Shown: positions 12,522 through 28,965 of the stretch, in pieces | How the letters are laid out: each line of letters starts with the position of its first letter | How positions within the stretch are numbered: the first letter of the stretch is position 1 | Translations under genes and position numbers: made by a program | The notes under the pieces: generated by a model | Seen by the model: only the letters and a program-made list of their open reading frames with translations | What the model was told of the DNA's origin: nothing | Databases searched by the model: none | Source of the DNA: Bradyrhizobium diazoefficiens | GTDB lineage: Bacteria; Pseudomonadota; Alphaproteobacteria; Rhizobiales; Xanthobacteraceae | DNA: 64,000 nt | NCBI RefSeq assembly: GCF_016616885.1 | Contig: NZ_CP067102.1 | Coordinates: forward strand, 682,001 to 746,000 | Reading direction: 5' to 3'

Positions 12522-12724
12522 ACTCAGCCCCTCAGTGGTGGAGTCTATGGCGGGAGCAAAAGGTTCAATGCAATCTAGCAGATGGTAGAGGGAAGGCCAT
12601 CCCGGGCAGGGTCGCCGGGGCGATTGTGCGCTGCGGCCCGCTTTCATTCCCGGTTGAAACCGATGGTCGCGCGCCTTAAGCAGGGTGCGGTCGCCTTTTG
12701 GCGCTTGATCCGGGAAGAGCCATC

Positions 12725-14050
12725 GTGACTTCAGCATTGCGCTTTTTGCAGGTCGCCGCCGCCACCCTGGCTCTCATCCTGAGTTCGCAGGCGCATGCCG
12801 CCACCGACATCGCGCTGTGGCACGCCATGTCGGGTGAGCTCGGCAAGCAGCTCGAAAAGCTCACCTCCGACTTCAACGCCTCGCAGTCGGACTACCGCAT
12901 CGTGCCGAGCTACAAGGGCAGCTACACCGAGACGGTGACGGCCGCGATCTTCGCCTTCCGCTCGCGCAGCCAGCCCGCGATCGTCCAGGTCAACGAGGTC
13001 GCCACGGCGACCATGACCGCGGCCAAGGGCGCGATCTATCCGGTCTACAGCATGATGCGCGACATGGGCGAGCCGTTCTCGCTCAACGACTATCTTCCGG
13101 CGGTCTCCGGCTATTACACCGATGCGAGCGGCAATTTGCTGTCGTTCCCGTTCAACTCGTCGACGCCGATCCTCTATTACAACAAGACCATGTTTCGCGA
13201 CGCCGGCCTCGATCCCGAGACGCCGCCGAAGACGTGGCCCGAGCTGGGCGCCGCTGCAAAGCGCCTGCGTGACCGCGGTGCCGTCTGCGGCTTCACCACG
13301 TCCTGGCCGTCCTGGATCCATGTCGAGAATCTTTCGGCATTTCACAATCTGCCGTTGGCTACGCGCGCCAATGGCTTTGCCGGCCTGGATGCCGAGCTGA
13401 CCATCAACAATCCGGTCGTGGTCAAGCACATCGCCCAGCTTGCCGAATGGCAGAAGACAAAACTGTTCGACTATAGCGGCCGCGGGCAAGCGGCCGAGCC
13501 GCGCTTCCAGAACGGCGAGTGCGGCATCTTCATCGGCTCCTCGGCGACGCGCGCCGACATCAAGGCCAATTCGAAGTTCGAGATCGGCTACGGCATGATG
13601 CCGTACTGGCCCGACGTGAACGGCGCGCCGCAGAATTCCATCATTGGCGGCGCCACGCTGTGGGTGCTGCGCGACCGCCCGCGCGAGGAATACAAGGGCG
13701 TAGCGCGGTTCTTCGCCTATCTGTCGCAGCCCGGCGTGCAGGCGGCCTGGCACCAGAACACCGGCTACCTGCCGATCACCCGCGCTGCCTTCGAGCTGAC
13801 GCGCGCGCAGGGTTTTTACGAGCGCAATCCGGGCTCGGCGATCTCGTTCGAGGAGATCACGCTGCATCCACCGACCGAGAATTCGAAGGGCATAAGGCTT
13901 GGCTCCTTCAACCTGATCCGCGGCGCGATCGAGGAGGAGCTGGAGCAGGCCTTCGCCGGCCAGAAGAGCGCGCCAGCCGCGCTGGATGCCGCGGTCGAGC
14001 GCGGCAACAAGCTGCTGCGCCAGTTCGAGCGCGCCAGCCCGGAGCGGTAG
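12725..14050 (+). CDS. Orphan UgpB-like ABC substrate-binding protein
   Basis: The 441-residue periplasmic binding protein resembles the glycerol-3-phosphate binder UgpB. It has a signal peptide (about 1-26, ending SSQAHA), then DIALWHAMSG, and a C-terminal half with NSIIGGATLWVL and HQNTGYLPIT. The GTG at 12725 with GGAAGAG upstream is chosen over a TTG at 12698. No permease or ATPase genes adjoin it; the gene before is the divergent TRAP operon and the gene after is a phosphotransferase-like protein. It must use transporter parts encoded elsewhere, or have another role. Confidence 0.82.
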   Translation: MTSALRFLQVAAATLALILSSQAHAATDIALWHAMSGELGKQLEKLTSDFNASQSDYRIVPSYKGSYTETVTAAIFAFRSRSQPAIVQVNEVATATMTAAKGAIYPVYSMMRDMGEPFSLNDYLPAVSGYYTDASGNLLSFPFNSSTPILYYNKTMFRDAGLDPETPPKTWPELGAAAKRLRDRGAVCGFTTSWPSWIHVENLSAFHNLPLATRANGFAGLDAELTINNPVVVKHIAQLAEWQKTKLFDYSGRGQAAEPRFQNGECGIFIGSSATRADIKANSKFEIGYGMMPYWPDVNGAPQNSIIGGATLWVLRDRPREEYKGVARFFAYLSQPGVQAAWHQNTGYLPITRAAFELTRAQGFYERNPGSAISFEEITLHPPTENSKGIRLGSFNLIRGAIEEELEQAFAGQKSAPAALDAAVERGNKLLRQFERASPER

Positions 14051-15154: not shown

Positions 15155-15279
15155 GATATGTCGCCTATCAAATAAGCCGATGTAGATTTGAGCCTAATTT
15201 TTGAGCACTCTGATCCTCTTTGTATGCAAGAAGAAAGGCTTGGGTGTCGAGGCATCATGCCGCAAATCCGCCATTAACT

Positions 15280-15325: not shown

Positions 15326-15340
15326 TGGCACGAACCTTGC
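15326..15340 (+). promoter_or_regulatory. Sigma-54 (RpoN) promoter of the ABC-atzGEH operon
   Basis: TGGCAC at 15326-15331 and TTGC at 15337-15340 with 5 bp between them match the -24/-12 consensus TGGCAC-N5-TTGC exactly. Transcription would start near 15352, 30 bp before the binding-protein start. RpoN dependence implies activation by an enhancer-binding protein such as NtrC. Confidence 0.75.
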
Positions 15341-15381
15341 GAATCCGGTTCCAACCAAAAACTTTGAGTTGGAGCCGTTTC

Positions 15382-17004
15382 ATGAAGCGTCGCGATTTTC
15401 TCAAGTCCGTGTCCGGATTGGCCGCCGGCGCGGCGCTTCCGGCGATGCCGCAGGTCATGTCCTCGGCCTATGCCGACGCGCGCTCGGAGACGCTGCTGAT
15501 CGTCTCGGAAGGCGGCCCGAACAATCTCGACATCCACGGCGTCGGCACCAACGTGCCCGGCTATGAAGTGTCCTGGAATTGCTACGACCGGCTGATCAGC
15601 CACGAGATGAAGGTCGGCCCCGGCGGGGTGCCCTATTACGACCGCGACAAGTTCAAGGGCGAGCTCGCCGAGGAGTTCAAGATCGACGAGATGTCGGTCA
15701 CCTTCAAGCTGCGCAAGAACGCCAAATTCCACGACGGCACGCCGGTTACCGCCAAGGACGTGAAGTGGTCGCTCGATCGCGCGGTCAGCGTCGGCGGCTT
15801 CCCGACCTTCCAGATGAGTGCGGGCTCGCTGACCAAGCCTGAGCAGTTCGTCGTGATCGACGACTATACCGTGCGCGTCGATTTCCTGAAGAAGGACAGG
15901 CTGACGATCCCCGATCTCGCCGTGATCGTGCCCTGCATCGTCAACTCCGAGCTGGTGAAGAAGAACGCCAACGAGAAGGATCCCTGGGGTCTCGAATTTA
16001 CCAAACAGCAGACCGCGGGCTCCGGCGCCTACAAGGTGACGAAGTGGACGGCCGGCACCGAAGTGATCATGGAGCGCAACGAGGATTGGGTCTGCGGTCC
16101 GCTGCCGAAGATCAAGCGCGTGATCTGGCGCATGGTGCCGCAGGCCGGCAACCGCCGCGCGCTGCTCGAGCGCGGTGACGCCGATATCTCCTACGAGCTC
16201 CCGAACAAGGATTTCCAGGAGATGAAGGCCAGCGGCAAGCTCAACGTGGTGTCGCTGCCGTTCTCCAACGGGATCCAGTATATCGGCATGAACGTCACCA
16301 AGCCGCCCTTCGACAATCCAAAAGTTCGTCAGGCAGTCGCCTACGCGCTGCCCTATCAGAAGATCATGGACGCCGTGATGTTCGGGCTGGCGAACCCGAT
16401 GTTCGGCGCGGCAAAGGACAAGCCGACCGAAGTCGCCTGGCCGCAGCCGCACAAATACAACACCGACATCGAGAAGGCGAAGGCACTGATGGCGGAAGCC
16501 GGCCTCGCGGGCGGCTTCGAGACCACGATCTCGTTCGACCTCAATTTCGGCGGCGTCAACGAGCCGCTTTGCGTGCTGGTGCAGGAGAGTCTCGCGCAGA
16601 TCGGCATCAAGACCACCATCAACAAGGTGCCCGGCGCCAACTGGCGCACCGAGTTGAACAAGAAGGAGATGCCGCTCTTCACCAACGTGTTCTCGGGCTG
16701 GCTCGATTACCCCGAATACTTCTTCTATTGGTGCTATCACGGCAACAATTCCGTCTTCAACACCATGAGCTACAAGTCGGCGGAGATGGACAAGCTCATC
16801 GACGGCGCGCGCAACGCCGCCGCGATCGGCGACATCGCGACCTACGACACCGACGTGAAAGGCTTCGTCGATCTCGCCTACACCGACATCCCGCGCATCC
16901 CGCTGTACCAGCCCTTCGTCAACGTCGCGATGCAGAAGAACATCTCGGGCTACCAATACTGGTTCCACCGCCGCCTCGACTATCGCGCGATGGCGAAGGG
17001 GTGA
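15382..17004 (+). CDS. Peptide/nickel-family (SBP family 5) ABC binding protein, Tat-exported
   Basis: The 540-residue periplasmic binding protein has a twin-arginine signal (KRRDFLKS at residues 2-9, then a hydrophobic stretch to about 35). The family-5 fold follows, with KLRKNAKFHDGTPVTAKDV near residue 110 and later the NPKVRQAVAYAL block. It is the first gene of an operon with two permeases, a fused ATPase and AtzG/E/H-like genes, so the cargo is probably a ureide or other nitrogen compound, not a peptide. ATG 15382 is chosen over 15325 because the Tat motif then sits at the N-terminus and the longer frame overlaps the sigma-54 promoter. Confidence 0.88.
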   Translation: MKRRDFLKSVSGLAAGAALPAMPQVMSSAYADARSETLLIVSEGGPNNLDIHGVGTNVPGYEVSWNCYDRLISHEMKVGPGGVPYYDRDKFKGELAEEFKIDEMSVTFKLRKNAKFHDGTPVTAKDVKWSLDRAVSVGGFPTFQMSAGSLTKPEQFVVIDDYTVRVDFLKKDRLTIPDLAVIVPCIVNSELVKKNANEKDPWGLEFTKQQTAGSGAYKVTKWTAGTEVIMERNEDWVCGPLPKIKRVIWRMVPQAGNRRALLERGDADISYELPNKDFQEMKASGKLNVVSLPFSNGIQYIGMNVTKPPFDNPKVRQAVAYALPYQKIMDAVMFGLANPMFGAAKDKPTEVAWPQPHKYNTDIEKAKALMAEAGLAGGFETTISFDLNFGGVNEPLCVLVQESLAQIGIKTTINKVPGANWRTELNKKEMPLFTNVFSGWLDYPEYFFYWCYHGNNSVFNTMSYKSAEMDKLIDGARNAAAIGDIATYDTDVKGFVDLAYTDIPRIPLYQPFVNVAMQKNISGYQYWFHRRLDYRAMAKG

Positions 17005-17008
17005 GAGG

Positions 17009-17103
17009 GGCGAATAGCGAATGGCGAATAGGGAGTAGCGAACAGTGATCAGGAGCCGCCACCAGCGCCTACTCGCCATTCGCCATTCGCTATTCGCGCG
17101 AGC
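17009..17103. repeat. Intercistronic hairpin repeat, family B (GCGAATGGCGAATAGGG)
   Basis: The left arm (about 17010-17040) and right arm (about 17068-17100) are inverted copies of GCGAATAGCGAATGGCG-type sequence and can fold into a stem of about 30 bp with few mismatches. The element sits between the binding-protein and first permease genes. A shorter member lies at 58883-58947 between boxC and boxB. Confidence 0.75.
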
Positions 17104-17115
17104 GGAGCGAGCCCC

Positions 17116-18129
17116 ATGCTCACCATGATCGGCAAGCGCCTGATGTTCGCGATCCCCTCGCTCATCGGCGTCGTCATCGTCACCTTCCTGCTGACGCGCG
17201 CGCTGCCGGGTGATCCGGCCGCGTATTTTGCGGGGCCTGCCGCGACCAAGGAAGCGGTCGAGCAGATCCGCAAGAAGCTCGGCCTCGACAAGCCGCTGAT
17301 CGAGCAGTTCTTCCGCTACACCAACGACCTCGCGCATGGCGATTTCGGCAACTCGCTCACGACAGGCCAGCCCGTCGCTGCCGAAATTCGCAACCGCCTT
17401 CCGGCTTCCGCCGAGCTGACGCTGCTCGGCCTGATCGTCTCGATTGTCATCGCCATCCCGCTTGGCGTGCTCGCAGCAACGCGGCCGGGGTCATGGATCG
17501 ACCATTTATGTCGCGTCACGACAACGGCCGGCGTGTCGTTGCCGGTGTTCTTCACCGGCCTGGTGCTGGTCTATGTCTTTTACTTCCAGCTCGGCTGGTC
17601 GCCCGCGCCGCTCGGCCGGCTCGATGTATTCTACAGCGCGCCGTCGACGGTCACCGGCTTCTATCTGATCGACACGCTGATCGCGCGTGACCTCGAGGCG
17701 TTCCGCTCGGCGCTGAGCCAGCTCATCCTGCCGGCGACGACGCTTGCGATCTTCTCGCTGGCGCCGATCGCGCGCATGACGCGCGCCTCGATGCTGGCGG
17801 TGCTGTCATCCGAATTCGTCCGCACCGCGCGCGCCAGCGGCCTGTCGCCGGCGACCGTCATCGTCACCTACGCGTTCCGCAACGCAATGCTGCCTGTGAT
17901 CACCACGCTCAGCATGGTGTTCTCCTTCCTGCTTGGCGCCAACGTGCTGGTGGAAAAAGTCTTCGCCTGGCCCGGCATCGGCTCCTACGCGGTGGAAGCG
18001 CTGATCTCGTCGGACTTCGCGCCGGTGCAGGGCTTCGTGCTGACCATGGCGGTGATGTACGTGCTGCTCAATCTCGTGATCGACATTCTCTATGGCGTGA
18101 TCGATCCACGCGTCAGGCTTGAGGGCTGA
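17116..18129 (+). CDS. ABC transporter permease, DppB/GsiC type
   Basis: The 337-residue inner-membrane protein has about six helices. The N-terminal helix (MLTMIGKRLMFAIPSLIG) is followed by the ALPGDPA motif of this permease family, and the cytoplasmic EAA-type loop reads EFVRTARASGLSPATVI. It pairs with the DppC-type permease 3 bp downstream to form the channel. It follows the binding-protein gene after a hairpin repeat. Confidence 0.9.
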   Translation: MLTMIGKRLMFAIPSLIGVVIVTFLLTRALPGDPAAYFAGPAATKEAVEQIRKKLGLDKPLIEQFFRYTNDLAHGDFGNSLTTGQPVAAEIRNRLPASAELTLLGLIVSIVIAIPLGVLAATRPGSWIDHLCRVTTTAGVSLPVFFTGLVLVYVFYFQLGWSPAPLGRLDVFYSAPSTVTGFYLIDTLIARDLEAFRSALSQLILPATTLAIFSLAPIARMTRASMLAVLSSEFVRTARASGLSPATVIVTYAFRNAMLPVITTLSMVFSFLLGANVLVEKVFAWPGIGSYAVEALISSDFAPVQGFVLTMAVMYVLLNLVIDILYGVIDPRVRLEG

Positions 18130-18132
18130 ACC

Positions 18133-19032
18133 ATGAGCTCTGTTGCACCCGCCGTCGAACCCGCCGGTCCCGCGCGAACTTCGGGTCTGGTCGCGATCCT
18201 CGACCAGACCCGCTACGTTCTCGGCGAGAACAAGGTCACGGGCTTTTCCTTCGCCCTGCTGATCGTGATTCTGCTTGCCGCGGTCTTCGGCCCGTATGTC
18301 GTGCCGTACGATCCGCTCGCCTCGGACACGGCGGCGGCGCTGAAAGCACCGTCGGCCGCGCACTGGTTCGGCACCGATCAGCTCGGCCGCGACATCTTCA
18401 GCCGTGTCGTGGTGGCGACGCGGCTCGATACCTTCATCGCGGTCGCCTCCGTCGTGCTGGTGTTCCTGATGGGCGGGCTTGCCGGCATCGCGGCGGGCTA
18501 TTTCGGCGGCTGGACCGACCGTATCGTCGGCCGCATCGCCGACACCATCATGGCGTTCCCGCTGTTCGTGCTGGCGATGGGCATCGTCGCGGCGCTCGGC
18601 AACACTGTGCAGAACATCATTCTGGCCACGGCCATCGTCAACTTCCCGCTCTATGCCCGCGTCGCGCGCGCCGAAGCCAACGTCCGCCGCAATGCCGGCT
18701 TTGTGCAAGCCGCGCGGCTGTCGGGCAACGGCGAATTCCGCATCCTGCTGGTGCATATCCTGCCGAACATCATGCCGATCATGATCGTGCAGATGTCGCT
18801 GACCATGGGTTACGCCATTTTGAATGCCGCCGGCCTGTCTTTCATCGGCCTCGGTGTCCGGCCGCCGACCGCCGAATGGGGCATCATGGTCGCGGAAGGG
18901 GCGGGCTTCATGGTCTCCGGTGAATGGTGGATCGCGCTGTTCCCCGGCCTCGCGCTGATGATCGCCGTGTTCTGCTTCAATCTCCTCGGCGACGGCCTGC
19001 GCGATATCGTCGATCCCCAGCGGAGGACGTGA
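18133..19032 (+). CDS. ABC transporter permease, DppC type
   Basis: This 299-residue permease has the family's extended N-terminus, then about six helices. Typical motifs are HWFGTDQLGRDIFSRV near residue 75 and the EAA-like loop NAGFVQAARLSGNG. It forms the translocation path with the DppB-type subunit. The gap to the ATPase gene is about 95 bp, which holds the ATPase ribosome binding site (GAGGGGAGG near 19113). Confidence 0.9.
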   Translation: MSSVAPAVEPAGPARTSGLVAILDQTRYVLGENKVTGFSFALLIVILLAAVFGPYVVPYDPLASDTAAALKAPSAAHWFGTDQLGRDIFSRVVVATRLDTFIAVASVVLVFLMGGLAGIAAGYFGGWTDRIVGRIADTIMAFPLFVLAMGIVAALGNTVQNIILATAIVNFPLYARVARAEANVRRNAGFVQAARLSGNGEFRILLVHILPNIMPIMIVQMSLTMGYAILNAAGLSFIGLGVRPPTAEWGIMVAEGAGFMVSGEWWIALFPGLALMIAVFCFNLLGDGLRDIVDPQRRT

Positions 19033-19126
19033 TGGTCGATTTTCCGCGAAGATTCTTCAATGATTCCAATGCCGCTCTACTGTGCATGGGGTTGTTTTTG
19101 AGCGTCTTGGGCGAGGGGAGGTATCC

Positions 19127-20857
19127 ATGACCGCCCAGCCACTGCTCGACGTCCAGGACCTCACGGTCGAATTCACCACCCGCCGCGGCATCGTCAAGGC
19201 CGTGCAGCACGTCAACATCTCCGTGGCCAAGGGCGAGACGCTTGCCATCGTCGGCGAGTCCGGCTCCGGCAAGTCGGTGACGTCTTACGCGGTGATGCGC
19301 ATCCTCGACCGCGCCGGCAGGATCGCCGAGGGCTCGGTGATGTTTTCCGGCATCGACGTCAAGGCCGCGACCGAAGACCAGATGCGCGACCTGCGCGGCC
19401 GTGAAGTCTCGATGATCTTCCAGAACCCGCGCGCGGCGCTCAACCCGATCCGCAAGGTCGGCGACCAGATCGAGGACGTGCTGCGCACCCATGTGCAGCA
19501 GGCCCAGGTCACAGATCGCGGCGAGAAGGCGATCGAGGCGCTGGAGCAGGTCAAGATCGCCCGCCCGCGCGAGCGCTATCACGCCTATCCGTTCGAGCTG
19601 TCCGGCGGCATGTGCCAGCGCGTCGTCATCGCGCTCGCGCTCGCCTGCAATCCGCAATTGCTGATCGCGGACGAGCCGACCACCGGCCTCGACGTCACCA
19701 CCCAGAAGGCGGTGATGGATCTGATCGTCGAGCTGACCAAGCGCAAGGCGATGTCGACCATCCTGATCACCCACGATCTTGGCCTCGCCGCTGCCTATTG
19801 CGACCGCGTCGTGGTGATGGAGAAGGGCCGGGTGGTCGAGACCGCCAAGGCCGCCGACATTTTTGCCAATCCGCAGCACCCCTACACCAAGAAGCTCATG
19901 CGCGCGACACCGCGGCTTGGTGTGTCGTTGCGGGATTTGCTGCCCGAAGAGGAGGGCGCTGCCTTCGCCTCTCCCCGCGTGCGGGAAGAGGCCGACGCGC
20001 AAAGCGGGGCGAGGGAGAAGACACCCCTCCTGCGCATCGAAAAGCTCGTCAAGGAATACCCCCGCCAGGGCGCCACCGCCACGCTCGGAAAACTGTTCGG
20101 CCGCAAGCCGCCTGTGGAGCCGGATGTGTTCCGTGCCGTCGACGGCATCAGCTTCGCGATCGGCCATGGCGAGAGCGTCGGCCTGGTCGGCGAATCCGGC
20201 TGCGGCAAATCGACCACGTCGATGATGCTGATGCGGCTCCTGGACCAGACCTCCGGCCTGATCCAGTTCGACGGCGAGGACATCGGCGGCATCGCGCCAA
20301 CTTCGTTTGCCCGGCTGCCGCAGCGCAGCCGCATCCAGATGGTGTTCCAGGATCCGACCGACAGCCTCAACCCGCGCTTCACCGCCGCGCGCGCCATTGT
20401 CGATCCGATCATGCAGCTCGGCGGCATCAGGGGCCGCGACGGGCTCCGCACCCGCTGCGAGGACCTGGCCACCATGGTCGGCCTGCCGCACAATCTGCTC
20501 GATCGCTTCCCGCACCAGCTCTCCGGCGGCCAGAAGGCCCGCGTCGGCATCGCCCGCGCCATCGCGCTGCATCCAAAGCTCGTCATCCTGGACGAGCCGA
20601 CGGCGGCGCTCGACGTCTCGGTGCAGGCTGTCGTCCTGAATCTGCTTCAGGACCTGAAGGCGCGGCTAGGTATGAGCTATCTGTTCGTCTCGCATGATTT
20701 GAATGTAGTGCGCTTGTTGTGCGATCGTGTCATTGTGATGCGGACGGGGCGGATCGTCGAAGAGGGCTGTTCCGAGAAGGTCTTGAGCGATCCGCAGGAC
20801 GACTACACCAAGGAGCTGCTGACGGCGATCCCGCATCCGCCGTTGCAGGTACACTGA
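19127..20857 (+). CDS. Fused ABC transporter ATPase (DppD-DppF in one chain)
   Basis: The 576-residue protein contains two complete ABC ATPase domains. The first is at about residues 5-260 (Walker A GESGSGKS, signature LSGGMCQR, Walker B LLIADEPT); the second is at about 305-570 (GESGCGKS, LSGGQKAR, LVILDEPT). It powers import through the two permeases upstream. The linker at about residues 281-303 is encoded by a sequence that matches the genome's intergenic hairpin repeat, kept in frame. ATG 19127 is chosen over 19082 because of the strong ribosome binding site GAGGGGAGG. Confidence 0.92.
   Translation: MTAQPLLDVQDLTVEFTTRRGIVKAVQHVNISVAKGETLAIVGESGSGKSVTSYAVMRILDRAGRIAEGSVMFSGIDVKAATEDQMRDLRGREVSMIFQNPRAALNPIRKVGDQIEDVLRTHVQQAQVTDRGEKAIEALEQVKIARPRERYHAYPFELSGGMCQRVVIALALACNPQLLIADEPTTGLDVTTQKAVMDLIVELTKRKAMSTILITHDLGLAAAYCDRVVVMEKGRVVETAKAADIFANPQHPYTKKLMRATPRLGVSLRDLLPEEEGAAFASPRVREEADAQSGAREKTPLLRIEKLVKEYPRQGATATLGKLFGRKPPVEPDVFRAVDGISFAIGHGESVGLVGESGCGKSTTSMMLMRLLDQTSGLIQFDGEDIGGIAPTSFARLPQRSRIQMVFQDPTDSLNPRFTAARAIVDPIMQLGGIRGRDGLRTRCEDLATMVGLPHNLLDRFPHQLSGGQKARVGIARAIALHPKLVILDEPTAALDVSVQAVVLNLLQDLKARLGMSYLFVSHDLNVVRLLCDRVIVMRTGRIVEEGCSEKVLSDPQDDYTKELLTAIPHPPLQVH
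19968..20020. repeat. Hairpin repeat embedded in the ATPase coding sequence
   Basis: CCTCTCCCCGC at 19968-19978 and GCGGGAAGAGG at 19981-19991 form a stem with one mismatch, followed by a CGAC-GCG-CAAAGCG-GGGCGAGGGAG tail typical of the intergenic CCTCTCCCC family. It encodes part of the interdomain linker and causes no frameshift. Confidence 0.6.
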
Positions 20858-20883
20858 GAGTGCACTGATTGTTTGGGAGCGTG

Positions 20884-21063
20884 ATGGCCGAGCCGCTGGA
20901 CGATTATATCGACGCCGTATCGAAAGCGCTGGCGCTGCCGGTCAAGGAGGCCTGGCGGCCCGCGGTGCGCGCCAATCTCGAAGTGTCGCTGCGGCTTGGC
21001 CGCATGGTCGACGAATTCGTGCTGCCGGACGAGACCGAGCCGGCGCCGATCTTCACGGTCTGA
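20884..21063 (+). CDS. AtzG-like (DUF4089) small subunit of an amidase
   Basis: The 59-residue protein matches the DUF4089/AtzG/HpxX family in size and pattern: EPLDDYIDAVSKAL near the start and RANLEVSLRLGRMVDEF in the middle, ending APIFTV. In the cyanuric-acid pathway AtzG forms a complex with AtzE and is required for its folding and activity. The AtzE-like gene starts 7 bp downstream. GTG 20881 is an alternative start; ATG 20884 gives the conserved N-terminus. Confidence 0.8.
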   Translation: MAEPLDDYIDAVSKALALPVKEAWRPAVRANLEVSLRLGRMVDEFVLPDETEPAPIFTV

Positions 21064-21070
21064 CGCTGCC

Positions 21071-22465
21071 ATGACCACCAAGCCAGAGATGACGGCCTCC
21101 GAGATTGCGACCGCGGTTGCGGGCGGCAAGATGTCGGCGCTCGATGCCACTGAAGCGGCGCTCGCGCGCATCAAGCAGCACGACGGCATTCTCAATTCCT
21201 TCACCGACGTCACCGCCGACCGCGCGCGTGCGAAGGCGCGCGCGATCGATGCCGATATCGCGGCCGAAAAGACCGTCGGCCCGCTCGCCGGCGTGCCTTT
21301 TGCCGTGAAGAACCTGTTCGACGTCGCGGGTCTGCCCACGCGGGCCGGCTCGAAGATCAACCGCGATCTTGCGCCCGCCAAGCGCGACGCCACGCTGATC
21401 GAGCGCATGGAAGCCGCCGGCGCCGTGTTGGTCGGTGCGCTCAACATGGGCGAATACGCCTACGACTTCACCGGCGAGAACGTCCATGACGGTCCCTCGT
21501 GCAACCCGCATGACACCACGCGCATGACCGGTGGCTCCTCCGGCGGCTCGGGGAGCGCCGTCGGCGGCGCGCTGGTGCCGATCGCGCTCGGCTCGGACAC
21601 CAACGGTTCGATCCGCGTGCCGTCCTCGTTCTGCGGCATCTTCGGCCTGAAGCCGACCTATGGGCGGCTGTCGCGGGCGCGCTCGTTCCCGTTCGTGGCA
21701 AGCCTCGATCATCTCGGCCCGTTCGCCCGATCCGTCACCGATCTCGCGCTCGCCTATGACGCGATGCAGGGCCCGGATGCCGACGATGCCGCCTGCACCA
21801 CGCGTGGCCTGGAACCGACGCTGCCGCTGATCGCCAATCCGGTTTCGGATTTGCGCATCGCAATCGCCGGGGGCTATTTTCAGAAGAACGTGTTTCCGGA
21901 AGCTGTCGAAGCCATCGGCCGTATCGCCAAGGCGCTTGGCGCGACGAAAGTGGTCGATGTGCCCGAAGCCGCGCGCGCCCGCGCAGCAGCCTACGTCATC
22001 ACCACCACGGAAGGTGCCTCGCTGCATCTTGATCGCCTGCGCAGGCGCCCGAACGATTTCGATCCGGCCGTGCGCGACCGGCTGATCGCCGGCGCCATGG
22101 TGCCCGCGCCGCTGGTCGATCGCGCGCAAAAATTCCGCCGCTGGTATCGCGCGCAATTCGCAGAGATCTTCAAGTCCGTCGACGTGCTGATCGCACCGGC
22201 GACGCCCTGCACCGCGCCAAAACTCGGCCAGGTCAACTTCAACCTCGACGGCGTCGAGTTGCCGGTGCGCGCCAATATCGGCATCCACACCCAGCCGATC
22301 TCGTTCATCGGCTTGCCCGTGGTTGCCGTGCCGGTGCCGCTCGAGCCACTGCCGATCGGCGTGCAGATCATTGCTGCGCCCTGGCGCGAGGACATCGCGC
22401 TGCGCGTCGCCTACGCTTTGGAAAAGATGGGCGTTGCCGCCGCGCCGTCGCCAAGGGGACTTTAA
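21071..22465 (+). CDS. AtzE-family amidase (1-carboxybiuret-type amidohydrolase)
   Basis: The 464-residue cytoplasmic amidase-signature enzyme has its Ser-cisSer-Lys triad visible: the lysine in PFAVKNLFDVAG and the serines in the TGGSSGGSGSAVGG loop with the GSDTNGSIRVP block. AtzE hydrolyses the amide of 1-carboxybiuret. HpxY-type relatives act on other ureides, so the exact substrate is uncertain. It stands between AtzG-like and AtzH/HpxZ-like genes, the same order seen in characterised operons. ATG 21071 is chosen; the frame upstream overlaps the AtzG-like gene. Confidence 0.85.
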   Translation: MTTKPEMTASEIATAVAGGKMSALDATEAALARIKQHDGILNSFTDVTADRARAKARAIDADIAAEKTVGPLAGVPFAVKNLFDVAGLPTRAGSKINRDLAPAKRDATLIERMEAAGAVLVGALNMGEYAYDFTGENVHDGPSCNPHDTTRMTGGSSGGSGSAVGGALVPIALGSDTNGSIRVPSSFCGIFGLKPTYGRLSRARSFPFVASLDHLGPFARSVTDLALAYDAMQGPDADDAACTTRGLEPTLPLIANPVSDLRIAIAGGYFQKNVFPEAVEAIGRIAKALGATKVVDVPEAARARAAAYVITTTEGASLHLDRLRRRPNDFDPAVRDRLIAGAMVPAPLVDRAQKFRRWYRAQFAEIFKSVDVLIAPATPCTAPKLGQVNFNLDGVELPVRANIGIHTQPISFIGLPVVAVPVPLEPLPIGVQIIAAPWREDIALRVAYALEKMGVAAAPSPRGL

Positions 22466-22477
22466 GAGGAATTTGAG

Positions 22478-22870
22478 ATGGAGATCGATCTCCCCGACGT
22501 GATCGCGGAAGTCAAAGCCGCGTTCGAGCGCTATGAGCAGGCCCTCGTCAGCAATGACGTCGCCGTGCTCGGCGAGCTGCTTCGCAACGATCCCCGCACG
22601 CTGCGCTACGGCATCGGCGAGAACCTCTACGGCTATGAGGCGATCTCCGGCTTCCGCGCGGGCCGCTCGCCGGTCGGCCTCAACCGACGCACCGCCAAGA
22701 CCGTGATTTCGAGTTATGGTCGCGACACGGCCGTTGCCTCCACTCTGTTCTATCGCGACACGGCTCCCGGCAGGGTCGGCCGGCAGATGCAGACCTGGAT
22801 TCGCTTCCCGGAGGGCTGGCGCGTCGTCGCGGCCCATGTCAGCATCATCGACGAGTCGAAAGAGACCTGA
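22478..22870 (+). CDS. hpxZ: AtzH/HpxZ-like (DUF3225) protein
   Basis: The 130-residue protein has the SnoaL/NTF2-like DUF3225 fold: an N-terminal helix ([16 protein letters not shown]), a [13 protein letters not shown] turn, and a C-terminal [17 protein letters not shown] strand. AtzH relatives have been assigned decarboxylation of 1,3-dicarboxyurea to allophanate; HpxZ is linked to oxalurate or oxamate use. Either fits a ureide-degrading operon. The gap to the amidase gene is 12 bp and to the GntR gene 4 bp. Confidence 0.8.
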
Positions 22871-22874
22871 CCGT

Positions 22875-23597
22875 ATGACGCTTGACGATTTTCCGCCCGG
22901 GACACTGCCGGCCGAGCCGGTGGTGCCGCGCGTCGACCGTGCCTCGCCATCGGTGCAGAAGGTCACGCGCGCCGAGGAACTGCGTCTCCAGCTTGCCGAC
23001 GAGATCGTGCGTGGAACTCTCGCACCCGGCGCGCCGCTGGACGAGACCGACATCGCGCGGCGCTTCAGCGTTTCCCGCACGCCCGTGCGCGAAGCCTTGC
23101 GCCAGCTCGTCGCGAGCGGCCTCGTCGAATCGCGGGCCCATCGCGGTGCGGTGGTGGCGCAACCCTCGGTCGAGCGGCTGACAAGCATGTTCGAGGCGAT
23201 GGCGGAGCTGGAGGCGCTGTGCGCCGGTCTTGCCGCCGAGCGCATGTCGGCTGCCGAGCGTCACGGTCTCGAAGCCATCCACGAAGAGCTGCGCGTGCTC
23301 AGCTACGCCGGCAATCCCGACCGCTTCCACGAGGTCAACGAGCGTTTCCACAACGCGATCTATGCGGGATCGCAGAACGGCTACATCGCCGAGATCACGC
23401 TGGCGACGCGGGTCCGCGTGCAGCCGTTCCGCCGCGCCCAGTTCCGCAATCTCGGCCGTCTCGCAAAATCGCAGGCCGAGCACGACCGCGTCGTCGTCGC
23501 CATCATGCGCGGCGACAAGCAGGGCGCTACGGCGGCGATGCGCGCGCATATCGAGCTGGTGCGCGGGGAGTATGAGATCTACGCGGTGTCGGTGTGA
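22875..23597 (+). CDS. GntR-family (FadR/FCD type) regulator
   Basis: The 240-residue regulator has a winged helix at about residues 33-100 (GAPLDETDIARRFSVSRTPVREALRQL) and an all-helical FCD ligand domain after it, with the FHEVNERFHNAIY metal/ligand region. It is the last gene of the ABC-atzGEH operon, so it probably senses a pathway intermediate. It starts 4 bp after the HpxZ-like gene. Confidence 0.9.
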   Translation: MTLDDFPPGTLPAEPVVPRVDRASPSVQKVTRAEELRLQLADEIVRGTLAPGAPLDETDIARRFSVSRTPVREALRQLVASGLVESRAHRGAVVAQPSVERLTSMFEAMAELEALCAGLAAERMSAAERHGLEAIHEELRVLSYAGNPDRFHEVNERFHNAIYAGSQNGYIAEITLATRVRVQPFRRAQFRNLGRLAKSQAEHDRVVVAIMRGDKQGATAAMRAHIELVRGEYEIYAVSV

Positions 23598-23603
23598 TAC
23601 GGC

Positions 23604-25421
23604 CTATGCTGTCGCGGCTTCCTTCATATACGCGCGCCAGCCGCCATACGCCGTGATATCCCGCGCTTCGCCCAGCACTTCCGGCTCGACGAGAAACCCC
23701 TTCACGCTGCGGCCATCCGCAAGCCGGATCGTGCCAATCGCCATCGGCGCGGGAATCGCGTTGACGAACTTGCCGAAGGCCGATGACGACAGCGACCAGA
23801 TCTCCAGCTCGATCGGCGCACCCGTGCCGGCTTCGACGCGCAGCAGGCCAGGCTTCGGCGGCGTAGTCTTCAGCGCGTAGAGCTTGTAGTCCGGCGCGGT
23901 CCTGGTCGCCTCGATCAGCGTTGCGTTCAGCGTCTTCAACTCGCCGTTCAGCGCCATGCCGGAGAGATGCGCGCCGACCACGGCGATCGGGATCTCGTCG
24001 CCGCTGTTTGCGGGAAGCGGCGCGAGCGGTGCTTGCGCAACACCCTTGGCGCCGACAGTGAGCTTCGTATCCGCATGGAACACGCGGCCGATGCTCGCGA
24101 GCTGCGCATCGCGTCCCGTCGGCGCCAGCAGCGTGATGCCGAACGGAATGCCGTCCGCGCGCATCGCCGCCGGCACGGCGAGACCGCAGAGATCGAGCAA
24201 GTTCACAAAGTTGGTGTAGGTCCCGAGCCGGCTGTTGAGCTCGATCGGATTGGCCATCACCTGCGCGGTCGTATAGGCCGTCGGTGCCGTCGGTAGCACC
24301 AATGCGTCGATATTCGCAAACGTCCGCTCGGCGATCTTGCGCAGGCCCTGCAAGCGATAGAGTGCAGAGAAGGTCTCCGCCGCCGTCAGCCGTGCGCCCG
24401 CCGCGGTGATCTCGCGCGTCACCGGATGAATCGAATCAGGCGCTGAGGCCAGCAGATTCTTGATCACGAGATAGCGCTCGGCAACCCACGGCCCCTCATA
24501 GAGCAGCCGCGCCGTCTCGTAGAAAGGCTCGAGGTCGAACTCGACCAGCTCGGCGCCGAGTGCGGTCCAGCGCTTCAAGGCTTCGCCGTAAGCGGCCTCC
24601 GCCTTCTTGTCGCCGAAAAAGATCAGCTGCCCGTTGCGCGGCACGCCCAAGCGCAGATTTATAGGGAACGGCGTGATCGTGCCCAGCGGCCGGTCGCGTG
24701 AGAACGGATCGGCCTGATCAGGCCCCGTCATCACCGACAGCGCGAGCGCGGCATCATCCACCGTCAGCGCAAACACCGAGATGCAGTCGAGCGTGCGACA
24801 GGCCGGAACCAGGCCCGCGGTCGAGATCATGCCGAGGCTCGGCTTCAGCCCGACGATGTTGTTGAGCATCGCCGGCACGCGCCCGCTGCCGGCCGTGTCG
24901 GTGCCGAGCGATAGCGGCACGAGGCCAGCGCCGACCGCCACAGCCGAGCCCGAGCTCGATCCGCCGGGAATGAGGTCCTCACGAATCGCATTTTTGGGAA
25001 TGCCATAGGGCGAGCGCACGCCGACCAGGCCGGTTGCGAACTGGTCGAGATTGGTTTTTCCGATGATGATGGCGCCGGCCGCGCGCAGCCGCTCCACCGC
25101 AGTCGAGTCGTGCGTGGGCGTATAGGAGAAGGCCGGGCAGGCCGCCGTGGTCGGAAAGCCCAGCGCGTCGATATTGTCCTTCACGGCGACCGGCACGCCG
25201 TAGAGCGGCAGGCTGCCGGCATCCTTCGAGGCGAGCTTCTCTGCATCCGCGATCGCGTCCTTCTCGTCGCGCAGGCTGATGAAGATGGCGGGGTCGTTGT
25301 GGTCGCGGATGCGCTGATAGGTCCGCGCGACCGTCTGCGCCGGCGTGACCGTGCCAGCGCGATGCGCGGCCACAATCGCGGCGATCGTTTCAGGCTGCTC
25401 AGCCCCCAATTCAGCCCCCAT
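23604..25421 (-). CDS. atzF: Allophanate hydrolase
   Basis: The 605-residue enzyme splits allophanate to ammonia and CO2. The amidase domain covers about residues 1-440 (lysine in VAVKDNIDALG; serines in GGSSSGSAVAVGAG). The C-terminal domain typical of AtzF has AHLSGMALNGELKTL and KLYALKTTPPKPGL. Full length argues for function. It converges with the GntR gene (7-bp gap). ATG 25421 is chosen over 25451 because the upstream sigma-54 promoter would start transcription near 25450, leaving the longer version without a leader. Confidence 0.9.
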   Translation of the reverse strand: MGAELGAEQPETIAAIVAAHRAGTVTPAQTVARTYQRIRDHNDPAIFISLRDEKDAIADAEKLASKDAGSLPLYGVPVAVKDNIDALGFPTTAACPAFSYTPTHDSTAVERLRAAGAIIIGKTNLDQFATGLVGVRSPYGIPKNAIREDLIPGGSSSGSAVAVGAGLVPLSLGTDTAGSGRVPAMLNNIVGLKPSLGMISTAGLVPACRTLDCISVFALTVDDAALALSVMTGPDQADPFSRDRPLGTITPFPINLRLGVPRNGQLIFFGDKKAEAAYGEALKRWTALGAELVEFDLEPFYETARLLYEGPWVAERYLVIKNLLASAPDSIHPVTREITAAGARLTAAETFSALYRLQGLRKIAERTFANIDALVLPTAPTAYTTAQVMANPIELNSRLGTYTNFVNLLDLCGLAVPAAMRADGIPFGITLLAPTGRDAQLASIGRVFHADTKLTVGAKGVAQAPLAPLPANSGDEIPIAVVGAHLSGMALNGELKTLNATLIEATRTAPDYKLYALKTTPPKPGLLRVEAGTGAPIELEIWSLSSSAFGKFVNAIPAPMAIGTIRLADGRSVKGFLVEPEVLGEARDITAYGGWRAYMKEAATA

Positions 25422-25461
25422 GGCGATAAAACTCCGGCAACTTGTCTTCACCCGGAATGAA

Positions 25462-25476
25462 GCAAGCGATGTGCCA
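25462..25476 (-). promoter_or_regulatory. Sigma-54 (RpoN) promoter of atzF
   Basis: On the minus strand TGGCAC (25476-25471), five bases, then TTGC (25465-25462) match the -24/-12 consensus exactly. The start site would lie about 30 bp before the atzF ATG, the same geometry as the promoter at 15326. Confidence 0.75.
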
Positions 25477-25615
25477 TTGTGTACATTATCCGGGCAGCGC
25501 GGTCGCTCCGGATATTATCGAAAGATCAGCAGCTTGTGGGATGTCTCGATGATCGATTGGGCGGGCATGCCAAGGCCCTGTTGCGGGCATTTGCCCAAAT
25601 CATGAGCAGTCCGGA

Positions 25616-26110
25616 TCAGGTGAAGCCAGCGAGAATCTGGAGCAGCCGCTCCCGGTTCGCCTTCCCGATCTTCTCCTCGACATGCCGCTCGTGCTCGGCG
25701 GCGAGCCGCTTGAATTTGGCCAGCGCCGTCTCACCCTGGCCCGTGAGATGCAGCGCGTGCGCGCGCCGGTCCGATTTCGACTTGATCCGCTTCACCAGCT
25801 TGCGCTGTTCGAGGCTGTCGAGCAGATGCACCAAACGGGCCCGCTCTATCCCGAGGCGTTTTGCCACTGCCATCTGCGAAAGCCCGGGGTTGGCGCCGAT
25901 CACCGTCAGCACCGAATATTGCGTCGGCCGGATGTCGACGTCGCCGAGCGTCTTGATGAAATCCTGAAAAATCCAGATCTGGAAGCGCCGCACCGCGTAC
26001 CCGGCGTGACCGAGCAGCGCATCAAGGCCGATCTCGTCCGCGTCGATCCGCGGCGTCGTGCCGTTGCCGGTGTGCTTGCGGAAAGAAGTCTGGACTGCGC
26101 TGGCTGTCAC
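25616..26110 (-). CDS. MarR-family regulator, divergent from feruloyl-CoA synthase
   Basis: The 164-residue protein has a MarR winged helix (about 60-130; GLSQMAVAKRLGIERARLVHLLDSLE then KSKSDRRAHALHLT). It starts with GTG at 26110, preceded by AGGAG at a good distance. It is divergent from the fcs gene, and a perfect 21-bp inverted repeat lies between them. In Rhodopseudomonas the MarR protein CouR represses hydroxycinnamate genes and responds to the CoA thioester; the same arrangement is inferred here. Confidence 0.87.
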   Translation of the reverse strand: MTASAVQTSFRKHTGNGTTPRIDADEIGLDALLGHAGYAVRRFQIWIFQDFIKTLGDVDIRPTQYSVLTVIGANPGLSQMAVAKRLGIERARLVHLLDSLEQRKLVKRIKSKSDRRAHALHLTGQGETALAKFKRLAAEHERHVEEKIGKANRERLLQILAGFT

Positions 26111-26160
26111 ATCGTGTCTCCTGCCGGGCGACCTTAGCGCCTCGACGGTGCCAGCGGAAG

Positions 26161-26181
26161 ATTGTTGTTGACGACAACAAT
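26161..26181. promoter_or_regulatory. Inverted repeat, probable MarR operator of fcs
   Basis: ATTGTTGT at 26161-26168 and ACAACAAT at 26174-26181 are perfect 8-bp arms around 5 bp. The site is in the divergent region, 51 bp before the regulator and about 83 bp before the preferred fcs start. Size and symmetry are typical of a MarR dimer site. Confidence 0.6.
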
Positions 26182-26263
26182 TGCCGTACCCAACATTATG
26201 GCCAAAGCAGCCCGGAACGAGGCTGTCGCCGAGCCGGACGTTTCCCGGGGCGAGGAGGAAACC

Positions 26264-28114
26264 ATGACGTCAGCCACTCGCGGTGACGCTTCGAGCCTGT
26301 TCGCAATGCCAAAGACCGTCGCCGAGCATCGCGCCGACGGCAGTATCGTGCTGCGCTCGCCGGAGCCCTTGGGCGACTGCGCGCGCTGCATCGGCGACTG
26401 GCTGGAGCATTTTGCGCGGCAGACGCCAGACAAGATCTTCCTCGCCGAGCGTGACAGCGCCGATACGCCGTGGGCCACCGTGACCTACGCGGGTGCCCTA
26501 CGGCGGGTACGCGCGGCGGCAACCTGGATTCTGGCGCAAGGGCTCAGCGTCGAGCGCCCCATTGTCATCCTCTCCGACAACAGTATCGATCATGCGTTGC
26601 TCGCGCTGGCCGCCCAGCACGTCGGCGTTCCCACGGCCGCGATATCGCCGGCCTATTCGCTGATGTCGAAGGATTTCGACAAGCTCAAGAGCATGATCGC
26701 GCTGCTGGAGCCGGGCGCGATCTATGTTTCCGCGACAAAGCCGTTTGCGGCGGCGCTGGCCGCGATCAAGCCGCTGCACAAGGCGCAGATCATCAGCGGA
26801 AATGCTGGCGACGTCGATGCGCTCGCCTTCCGCACCGTCGCGGCAACGCCCGAAACTCCCGATGTCGCAACGGCCTTTGCCACAGTCACGCCTGACACGG
26901 TCGCAAAATTCCTGTTCACCTCGGGCTCGACCGGCACGCCCAAGGCGGTCATCAACACCCAGCGCATGCTGACCTCGAGCCAGCAGGCCAAGGCGCAGAC
27001 CTGGACCTTTCTGGAACAGGGGCGCGGCGATCTCGTCATCCTCGACTGGCTGCCCTGGAGCCACACCTTCGGCGCCAACCACAATTTCAATCTGGTGCTG
27101 CGCAACGGCGGCGCACTCTATATCGACGGCGGCAAGCCCGCGCCCGGACTGTTTGCGACGTCGCTTGCGAACCTGAAAAGCGTGATGCCGACGGTCTATT
27201 TCAACGTGCCGCGTGGCTTCGACATGCTGATTGCCGCGCTCCGTGCCGACGAGGAGCTGCGCCGGCGTTTCTTCGGCGAGGTGAAGTTTGCCTTCTATGC
27301 CGGCGCCGCGCTGCCGCAAAATCTGTGGGACGCACTCGCAGAGCTTTCGATCGAGACTGTCGGCCGTGCGCTGCCGATGGTCTCGGCCTGGGGCTCGACC
27401 GAGACTTCGCCGCTGGCGACCGACTGCCATTTCCTTGCTGAGCGTTCCGGCAATATCGGCGTGCCGATTCCCGGAACGGAGCTCAAGCTCGTTACCTCCG
27501 GCGACAAGCTGGAGGTGCGCGTGCGCGGCCCCAATGTCACGCCCGGCTACTGGAAGGCGCCCGAGCTGACCAGGCAGGCTTTTGATGAGGAAGGCTTTTA
27601 TCTCATCGGCGATGCCGTGAAGCTTGCGGACGTCGGCCGGCCCGAGCGCGGCCTGTTCTTCGACGGCCGTGTTGCGGAGGATTTCAAGCTCAATTCCGGC
27701 ACCTGGGTCAGCGTCGGCACCTTGCGTGTCGCGGGCATCGCAGCCCTTGCGCCTCTGGCGCAGGACATCGTCGTCACCGGTCACGGCGGCGACGAGGTGC
27801 GGTTTCTGGTGTTTCCGAACATCGGCGCCTGTCGCGCTCATTCCGGTCTGCCGGAGGCGGCAGGCGTCAGTGATGTGTTGGCCCATGACAAGGTCAGGAC
27901 TGCCATCGTGCGGGGGCTCTCAAGACTGAAGCAGCAGGGGGCCAATTCCTCCGGCCACGCCACGCGCGCGCTGCTGCTCGCCGAGCCGCCGTCGGTCGAT
28001 GGCGGCGAGATCACCGACAAGGGCTACATCAACCAGCGCGCGGTGTTGACGCGGCGCGCGGATGCCGTGGCGCGGTTGAATGATGACGCGTCGGGTGAGT
28101 GGATCGGGTTGTAG
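26264..28114 (+). CDS. fcs: Feruloyl-CoA synthase (hydroxycinnamate-CoA ligase)
   Basis: The 616-residue adenylate-forming enzyme should activate ferulate or a related hydroxycinnamate to its CoA thioester. The AMP-binding P-loop FTSGSTGTPKAV, the SAWGSTETSPLAT motif and a C-terminal SVDGGEITDKGYINQ lysine segment are visible. ATG 26264 is chosen because GAGGAGGAAACC precedes it; in-frame starts at 26162 and 26198 lack such a site. The hydratase/lyase and vanillin dehydrogenase genes that would continue the pathway are not in the window. Confidence 0.85.
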   Translation: MTSATRGDASSLFAMPKTVAEHRADGSIVLRSPEPLGDCARCIGDWLEHFARQTPDKIFLAERDSADTPWATVTYAGALRRVRAAATWILAQGLSVERPIVILSDNSIDHALLALAAQHVGVPTAAISPAYSLMSKDFDKLKSMIALLEPGAIYVSATKPFAAALAAIKPLHKAQIISGNAGDVDALAFRTVAATPETPDVATAFATVTPDTVAKFLFTSGSTGTPKAVINTQRMLTSSQQAKAQTWTFLEQGRGDLVILDWLPWSHTFGANHNFNLVLRNGGALYIDGGKPAPGLFATSLANLKSVMPTVYFNVPRGFDMLIAALRADEELRRRFFGEVKFAFYAGAALPQNLWDALAELSIETVGRALPMVSAWGSTETSPLATDCHFLAERSGNIGVPIPGTELKLVTSGDKLEVRVRGPNVTPGYWKAPELTRQAFDEEGFYLIGDAVKLADVGRPERGLFFDGRVAEDFKLNSGTWVSVGTLRVAGIAALAPLAQDIVVTGHGGDEVRFLVFPNIGACRAHSGLPEAAGVSDVLAHDKVRTAIVRGLSRLKQQGANSSGHATRALLLAEPPSVDGGEITDKGYINQRAVLTRRADAVARLNDDASGEWIGL

Positions 28115-28461
28115 CTAGTTGCTGATCAACCCGGTGTTAGGCAGGCTCGTCCCCCATCGTCATTGCGAGCGCAGCGAAGCAATCCAGAATCCCGCCGCGG
28201 AAAGACTCTGGATTGCTTCGCTTCGCTCGCAATGACGGGGGATGGAGCAGCAGCTCGCCCAAACACGCCAGCCATTCTGCGGCAATATCCTGCATGCTTC
28301 TTTTGTTGCCGAAGCAACTATTTCGTGCGAACCGTTCCGGACAGGGATGACGGCGCAGGAACCGCTGCGTCTGATCGGAGGAAACGATGCTCGGCAGAGA
28401 GGGTGCCGCGGGCAAATGCCAGCGCATGCCTGGAGGCGAATTGCGCCCGGCGCGTGGCCCG
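28115..28461. other. Intergenic region, 347 bp, with palindromic repeat
   Basis: Between the convergent fcs and MarR genes lies the repeat at 28158-28237 and then about 220 bp with no supported gene. A GGAGG before an ATG at 28387 is noted but the frame only runs antisense through the MarR gene. Confidence 0.6.
28158..28237. repeat. Palindromic repeat, family C (CGTCATTGCGAGCG...)
   Basis: The left arm at 28158-28191 and right arm at 28204-28237 are near-perfect inverted copies and form a stem of about 34 bp. The outer arms are shared with 32506-32585 and 47036-47086. Confidence 0.8.
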
Positions 28462-28965
28462 TCAGGCCCCGCTGCCGCCGGTCACTGCGCCGAGATTTTC
28501 GTGCAACCGGCGCAGCAGGTCGATCAGCACCTCGCGCTCGTCCTTGCTCAGACAGGACAGCAGGCGCCGCTCCCGTTCGAACGCAGCAACGATCACCTTG
28601 TCATGGGTGGCGCGGCCCTTCGCGGTCAGCGAGATCGAATGAGTCCGGCCGTCGTTCGGATCGGTGCGGATCGACACATGCCCGCGCTTCTCGAGGCCGG
28701 CGAGCGTGCGGCTCACCGGGCCCTTGTCGAAGCCGATGACGTGGCAGATGCGCGAGGCGGGGATGCCGGGCTCGATCGCCAGCAGCGACATGATCCGCCA
28801 TTCCGTGACGTTGACGCCGAACTGCCGTTGATAACGCGCAGTCGCGCTGTTCGAGAGCTTGTTGGCGATAAAGGTGATGAACGCCGGGACGTAACGATCG
28901 AGATCGAGCGTCGGCCCGACGTCGGCGGGCGCAGGTTTTTGGCGGGATCTGGTCGAAGGCGGCAT
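28462..28965 (-). CDS. MarR-family regulator, divergent from truncated P450
   Basis: The 167-residue protein has a MarR fold: RQFGVNVTEWRIMSLLAIEPG, recognition helix region ASRICHVIGFDKGPVSRTLAGLE, and wing RTDPNDGRTHSISLT. It is divergent from the P450 fragment with an 83-bp gap, so it probably once controlled aromatic O-demethylation. It is intact even though its neighbour is not, so it may have other targets. Confidence 0.87.
   Translation of the reverse strand: MPPSTRSRQKPAPADVGPTLDLDRYVPAFITFIANKLSNSATARYQRQFGVNVTEWRIMSLLAIEPGIPASRICHVIGFDKGPVSRTLAGLEKRGHVSIRTDPNDGRTHSISLTAKGRATHDKVIVAAFERERRLLSCLSKDEREVLIDLLRRLHENLGAVTGGSGA

Follow-up and report, generated by a model that had tools for sequence, protein, structure and literature searches.

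The subject of this report is a nitrogen locus of Bradyrhizobium diazoefficiens at positions 15,326 to 25,476 of a 64-kb stretch of DNA, here called the window (contig positions 682001-746000), in which an operon for an ABC transporter, the proteins AtzG, AtzE and AtzH and a GntR-type regulator converges with the gene atzF, for allophanate hydrolase. Each of the two transcription units is preceded by a sigma-54 -24/-12 element, and there is good reason to hold that these two elements are the promoters of a dispersed pathway of the carboxybiuret type under two inputs, one from NtrC and the other from GntR.

The Locus

The genes of the two units are as follows.

15382..17004, plus strand: sbp, family-5 solute-binding protein (PF00496)
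17116..18129, plus strand: ABC permease 1
18133..19032, plus strand: ABC permease 2
19127..20857, plus strand: ABC ATPase with two ABC domains
20869..21063, plus strand: atzG (PF13318); TTG is the start of the reading frame as listed
21071..22465, plus strand: atzE (TIGR02715, 756 bits, cut-off 426)
22478..22870, plus strand: atzH (PF11533; NCBIfam HpxZ 196 bits, cut-off 135)
22875..23597, plus strand: gntR, FCD-type GntR regulator and last gene of the operon; under the cut-off of every NCBIfam model listed
23604..25421, minus strand: atzF, allophanate hydrolase (TIGR02713, 814 bits, cut-off 511; ATG at 25421)

The genes gntR and atzF converge with 6 bp between their stop codons. AtzG (PF13318), AtzE (TIGR02715), AtzH (PF11533) and AtzF (TIGR02713) all lie above the cut-offs of their models, as a carboxybiuret pathway requires, and the locus, which an earlier note on this DNA had called ureide-type, is better read as a carboxybiuret/allophanate branch. 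The closest solved structures are 6c62 for AtzE (499 bits), 6bjt for AtzH (148 bits) and the allophanate hydrolase 4gyr for AtzF (608 bits), and Tyr19 and Arg43 of the AtzH encoded here align with a Tyr and an Arg of AtzH 6bjt. For the solute-binding protein only distant solved relatives were found, the best at 143 bits.

Two Sigma-54 Elements

The elements in front of the two units are listed below, with distances given relative to the sigma-54 site.

15163..15177, no strand assigned: second NtrC-type palindrome of sbp, GCCTATCAAATAAGC, 148 bp upstream
15192..15206, no strand assigned: main NtrC-type palindrome of sbp, GCCTAATTTTTGAGC, 119 bp upstream
15219..15229, plus strand: probable GntR operator of sbp, TTTGTATGCAA, an 11-mer that occurs once in the genome
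15326..15340, plus strand: sigma-54 -24/-12 element of the transporter-atzGEH-gntR operon, TGGCACGAACCTTGC, exact TGGCAC-N5-TTGC
25462..25476, minus strand: sigma-54 -24/-12 element of atzF, TGGCACATCGCTTGC, exact TGGCAC-N5-TTGC
25476..25485, minus strand: probable GntR operator of atzF, TGTACACAAT, sharing one base with the -24 box
25593..25607, no strand assigned: NtrC-type palindrome of atzF, GCTCATGATTTGGGC in the minus-strand reading, 116 bp upstream

Both TGGCAC-N5-TTGC elements are exact and lie at the coordinates and on the strands that the earlier note gave, and they are the sole exact matches in the window. In 100 dinucleotide shuffles of the window the mean number of exact sites is 0.15, with at least two in 1 of the 100. 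The whole genome (8,085,095 bp in one contig) contains 36 exact sites, compared with 12 for a reversed control pattern, and at this density 0.28 sites are expected in 64 kb, with a probability of 0.034 for two or more. That two perfect sites are unlikely by chance, as had been claimed, is thus true by their position and conservation and not by their number in 64 kb, which is unremarkable. A correctly oriented site at most 100 bp from a given start has a probability of about 2.2e-4.

Conservation was followed in the best 80 of 585 AtzF relatives, taken from named genomes; 24 of these loci (L001-L021, L025, L027 and L035) make up the Bradyrhizobium set. Upstream of sbp the exact box is present in 19 of 21 Bradyrhizobium regions, with TGGCAT in the other two, and upstream of atzF in 23 of 24, with TGGCAT in the remaining one. 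Outside this set, exact boxes precede sbp in four loci (L022, L031, L070, L075) and atzF in another four (L059, L072, L074, L076). The same scan found no exact box upstream of the first permease gene (0/40), the ATPase gene (0/67), marR (0/21), acs (0/22), aph (0/3), atzH (0/40) or gntR (0/56). Before atzE, 4 of 80 regions have one, and these may be matches on the related atzF. Boxes with one mismatch precede the first permease gene once, the ATPase gene once, atzH twice and atzE five times. When intergenic DNA is aligned, the boxes stand out as islands amid diverged sequence.

The sites end 41 bp (sbp) and 40 bp (atzF) before the ATG codons, and not about 30 bp before them as first stated; some 30 nt is instead the length of the predicted 5' untranslated region, with transcription starts predicted at about 15352 for the sbp operon and about 25450 for atzF. 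The site in front of atzF, which had been thought to settle its start codon, does favour the ATG at 25421, since the upstream GTG at 25451 would sit on the predicted transcription start, but it supports this choice without settling it: in the alignment several relatives, for example L017, L018, L020 and L035, have no ATG at this position. With GG and GC at -24 and -12, in fixed spacing and conserved, the two elements are, as judged from their sequence, sigma-54 promoters.

The Upstream Palindrome and the Probable Activator

Both promoters are preceded by a palindrome with the consensus GCYYA-N5-TRRGC, mostly about 105 or 116 bp upstream. With the window included, a best palindrome score of at least 9 out of 10 is reached by 21 of 22 sbp regions and 24 of 25 atzF regions, compared with 4.8% of shuffled regions. 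When ties in distance are broken towards 112 bp, the distance from the atzF palindrome to the -24 box is 103-107 bp in 10 regions and 113-117 bp in 15, while the sbp palindrome lies at 106-109 bp in 3 of 22 regions, at 116-119 bp in 14, and at 95, 123, 129, 146 and 147 bp in the other five; L007 and L008 also have an sbp palindrome at 146 bp. The two spacing classes differ by roughly a helical turn, which is what activation by looping would lead one to expect, and at least 5 and 3 changes of spacing class occur on the atzF gene tree.

In 17 of 30 genomes the strict form of this palindrome is also found before glnII, and its distance from the glnII sigma-54 box is then always 290-293 bp. The gene glnII is a classical NtrC target (Martin 1988, cited by title in PMC4842269), so that the element upstream of sbp and atzF is common to a known member of the NtrC regulon. 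An NtrC-type palindrome upstream of each promoter supports nitrogen control.

There is one rpoN gene in the genome, and there are seven strong Sigma54_activat matches, on which, L087-L089 excepted, family models were run. NtrC is encoded (L084, TIGR01818, 745 bits, cut-off 559), and NifA and FlbD too are above their model cut-offs, with further activators beside them. The NifA-type element TGT-N10-ACA does not occur within 250 bp of either promoter, whereas eight of the genome's other 34 exact boxes have one, and control by NifA is therefore disfavoured. Four of these eight are among seven boxes at 1.57-1.66 Mb.

These seven exact boxes lie within 90 kb (contig 1571962-1660583), four of the seven with an upstream TGT-N10-ACA match, and the box at 1644674 is identical to that of atzF.

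A Putative GntR Operator

A further element, with the consensus TGYAYRCAA, is conserved at both promoters and is likely, by its sequence and distribution, to be the operator of the operon's own GntR. It lies 96 bp upstream of the box at sbp, where it adjoins the NtrC-type palindrome, and abuts the box at atzF and at a trtA-type gene elsewhere on the contig. Its extended form TGTACACAATGGC occurs at exactly two places in the 8.08-Mb genome, atzF and trtA (6177878-6177890), and with one mismatch at one further place, 2105405.

The operator is found before sbp or atzF in all 24 Bradyrhizobium loci. The 56 other loci divide into 27 that contain a gntR relative of at least 40% identity, 11 of which have the operator before sbp or atzF, and 29 that contain none, where this holds for 3 (Fisher p 0.013). 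When the region before gntR, which exists only in the gntR group, is added, the count by hand is 24 of 27, the operator missing from L034, L077 and L080; as background, 90 of 5292 tiles of 300 bp contain it. An operator that is common to the targets and tracks the gntR gene is what a local regulon of an FCD-type GntR would display. In L052 and L079 the operator precedes sbp, yet no sigma-54-like box there scores above 6 of 10. In 15 of the 80 loci, mostly from Rhizobium, Mesorhizobium and relatives, gntR, bmp genes, biuH, trtA and atzF are clustered, and L065 and L069 have the same bmp, biuH, trtA and atzF genes without gntR.

Related Genes Elsewhere in the Chromosome

The second copy of TGTACACAATGGC, 5.47 Mb along the contig from the site in the window, precedes a gene for a cysteine hydrolase. 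The best solved relative of this protein is 6xix (286 bits), followed by BiuH 6azo (229 bits), and 6xix is taken to be TrtA from an alignment with the residues named in PMC7948467. All six TrtA-typical residues of that list (F35, N41, A134, E160, Y187 and I205) are present in the protein, as aligned by eye, and it scores 263 bits with the NCBIfam BiuH model, under the cut-off of 370. Its promoter has the layout of atzF, with palindrome at 116 bp, operator and box. In a sample of 60 Bradyrhizobium genomes that includes the present one, 57 carry a trtA-type gene (E 1e-80 or better). Among the best 30 of these 57 promoters, all have the box TGGCAY-N5-TTGC, 27 have the palindrome at 116 bp (missing from L158, L160 and L163), and 28 have TGTACACA abutting the box (missing from L158 and L163).

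At 2.89 Mb there is a gene for BiuH itself (NF050097, 414 bits, cut-off 370). On the same strand it is preceded by the gene of a BMP-type binding protein and by two permease genes, with no ATPase gene seen between them. The promoter of this bmp-biuH operon has an exact box at 2893328 and a loose palindrome at 118 bp that overlaps the operator-like TTTGCATACAA; this stretch, like a near-palindrome at 85 bp, was read by eye. The operon is thus, less surely and on sequence grounds, a candidate member of the same regulon.

There is no atzD in the operon of the window, as a cyanuric acid operon would have it. The only PF09663 (AtzD/TrzD) match of the genome is at 7088481-7089554, 6.4 Mb off along the contig, and its 4-kb locus contains no sigma-54 box of the forms sought, which weakens cyanuric acid as the obvious substrate. 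Oxalurate is another candidate, as AtzH matches HpxZ above its cut-off, but the pairing of atzH with atzF and the partners in the regulon speak for carboxybiuret.

About 7-10 kb downstream of the AtzD-family gene (L081, L126) there are an exact sigma-54 box and a sigma-54 activator match. It is flanked by what we take to be a transposase-like frame on its upstream side and an amidase-like one on its downstream side.

Relation to Earlier Work

That the sigma-54 part is largely known already follows from two sources. A 2016 study predicted that NtrC governs atzF in Rhizobiales and, depending on the taxon, glnA, amtB, urt and nas genes (PMC5343134), and in RNA-seq of rpoN mutants of Bradyrhizobium sp. 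DOA9 from 2026, atzF is strongly down, atzE is down, and so are two isochorismatase genes (PMC13207237). In Table 1 of the DOA9 paper, TGGCACGAACCTTGC at -43 of a peptide/nickel solute-binding protein gene is identical to the sbp box, TGGCACGGCGCTTGC at -37 of an isochorismatase gene to the trtA box, and TGGCACGAAGCTTGC at -73/-76 of a BMP solute-binding protein gene to the bmp-biuH box. By box, position and annotation these genes appear to be orthologs of those described here. The available part of the DOA9 paper treats the isochorismatases as infection- or virulence-like and does not join the genes as one pathway, its main text gives no match to 'GntR', and its electrophoretic mobility shift assays included an 'ABC-transporter' promoter. 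Within the part of the 2016 paper at hand there is no mention of trtA, biuH, an ABC-atzGEH operon or a GntR co-regulator in the Rhizobiales NtrC-sigma-54 regulon.

AtzG, AtzE, AtzH and AtzF are of the same families as the products of the atzDGEHF operon of Pseudomonas sp. ADP, to judge from the portion of PMC6219798 consulted. In contrast to that operon, atzF is here convergent and separate, the ABC transporter and gntR are joined to the other genes, and the AtzD relative is 6.4 Mb away. The triuret pathway of Herbaspirillum consists of trtA, trtB, biuH and atzF (PMC7948467, in part), and a TrtA-type enzyme, BiuH and AtzF are present here too, but the genes are dispersed and carboxybiuret can pass through AtzGE/AtzH. 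In the literature searched, some of it in excerpt, no report was found of a GntR regulator that controls trtA, biuH or atzF, which is not to claim that none is in print. What could be drawn from two further papers is that the legend to a figure on biuH synteny names a gntR gene (PMC12625717) and that allophanate hydrolase genes are expressed in bacteroids (PMC9927569). For a Caulobacter NtrC motif PMC10274813 points to a figure, and PMC5806882 yielded nothing useful on operons or regulators.

Alternatives

In the model of the earlier note NtrC alone would activate, TGYAYRCAA would be an extension of the promoter or the site of another protein, and nitrogen limitation would suffice. The conserved box and palindrome agree with this, as does the prediction for atzF in the accessible part of PMC5343134, but the placement of TGYAYRCAA, 96 bp upstream at sbp and abutting the box at atzF and trtA, does not fit an extended promoter. 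The element is moreover found before sbp in two loci (L052, L079) that lack a sigma-54-like box scoring above 6, and before sbp, atzF or gntR in 24 of the 27 non-Bradyrhizobium loci with a gntR relative, and NtrC acting alone is considered improbable. Slightly less credit still is given to a sigma-54 activator other than NtrC, be it NifA under microaerobic conditions, NtrX or an NtrC-like protein. In favour of such an activator are the seven strong matches in the genome and the growth conditions of the DOA9 RNA-seq, which were nitrogen-fixing and microaerobic (PMC13207237, in part); the palindrome that is common to glnII, and the lack of a NifA-type element within 250 bp of either site, tell against it. 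As the 12 matches of the reversed control show, some exact matches to so short a consensus are due to chance. That the present two are such, without promoter function, is next to inconceivable in view of an exact or TGGCAT box at similar distances in all 21 sbp and 24 atzF loci of Bradyrhizobium, and of RpoN-dependent expression in DOA9.

Several observations weigh against promoters with the two inputs NtrC and GntR. For NtrC, the spacing classes derive from related sequences, and the strict palindrome is missing at glnII in 13 of 30 genomes, of which three (L189, L190, L193) have no matched box. Nor is the palindrome enriched genome-wide, with 87 sites and 112 for the reversed control; of the other 34 exact boxes, that of trtA alone has the strict form within 250 bp, and in the forms sought it was not found at three P-II gene promoters (glnBA, glnK-amtB). 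At the biuH operon it is loose and overlaps an operator-like stretch of opposite orientation. For GntR, the operator is at sbp or atzF in just 11 of the 27 non-Bradyrhizobium loci with gntR, the gntR relatives next to biuH-trtA clusters show no more than 45-52% identity, and the repression assigned to GntR is suggested by family and position. As for DOA9, the available part of the paper lists the TGGCACGGCGCTTGC and TGGCACGAAGCTTGC boxes for other genes too and leaves atzF out of Table 1, and its data, from nitrogen-fixing microaerobic culture, may include indirect effects (PMC13207237).

Other Features

Next to atzF, the window has two marR-type frames around an AMP-ligase-like frame (25616-28965). 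The first marR, on which a family-model search was run, is upstream of atzF on the same strand; of the 24 Bradyrhizobium loci, 21 have this marR near atzF and 22 have the ligase.

In five loci outside Bradyrhizobium (L043, L044, L066, L073, L078) transporter genes run directly into atzF, and the best atzE match is atzF itself. This arrangement suggests that their transporter carries a compound that yields allophanate.

A glutamine synthetase-type match (PF00120, 272 bits) is found at 47761-48786 on the minus strand of the window, and at 9442-12737, also on the minus strand, there is presumably a sensor-kinase-like frame beside a TRAP-type binding-protein-like frame. Three further sigma-54 boxes of the genome (L113, L114, L124) precede frames that we take to be permease-like, ABC ATPase-like and glutathione transferase-like. 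They share all 15 bases with boxes of the DOA9 table.

Discussion

The proposed scheme is the following. Under nitrogen limitation, phosphorylated NtrC would bind GCYYA-N5-TRRGC at a distance of about 105 or 116 bp and, through a DNA loop from this upstream site, open the RNA polymerase held at the -24/-12 element. GntR would bind TGYAYRCAA, touching the -24 box at atzF and trtA and beside the NtrC site at the transporter operon, and would most likely repress until a compound of the pathway releases it. The regulon would comprise the ABC-atzGEH-gntR operon, atzF, the trtA-type gene and, less surely, the BMP-transporter-biuH operon. In this pathway TrtA would convert triuret to carboxybiuret and AtzGE/AtzH carboxybiuret to allophanate, while BiuH would convert biuret to allophanate, from which AtzF would release the last ammonia. 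We infer NtrC as the activator, the binding of GntR and its direction, and the substrates from the features described above.

The earlier note had the whole locus switched on by nitrogen limitation. Sigma-54 promoters with NtrC-type palindromes bear this out in part, but the probable GntR operator would add a second signal. Since this conserved operator touches the -24 box of atzF and adjoins the activator site of sbp, nitrogen limitation is probably necessary but insufficient, with a pathway compound as the second signal. The locus also seems to be one part of a regulon that includes trtA and the biuH operon elsewhere in the genome. The GntR layer and the link into one pathway are put forward here as the new elements, both proposed from sequence.

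The balance of the evidence leans towards the fuller reading, in which a triuret, biuret and carboxybiuret regulon is spread over three chromosomal places, a GntR operator edges the -24 box, both signals are needed and the compounds may be a regular nitrogen source. The architecture would then illustrate, on a small scale, how a sigma-54 promoter can answer to a global activator and probably also to a local GntR, for which an operator is proposed. Genes of Bradyrhizobium, the genus of the soybean symbionts, that are labelled peptide transporter, isochorismatase and amidase would be joined into one nitrogen-scavenging pathway and acquire a testable function. Since a trtA-type gene is present in nearly all of the Bradyrhizobium genomes sampled, triuret-type compounds, arising for instance from the oxidation of uric acid, may be a normal source of nitrogen for these bacteria in nature and not an impurity of fertilizer.

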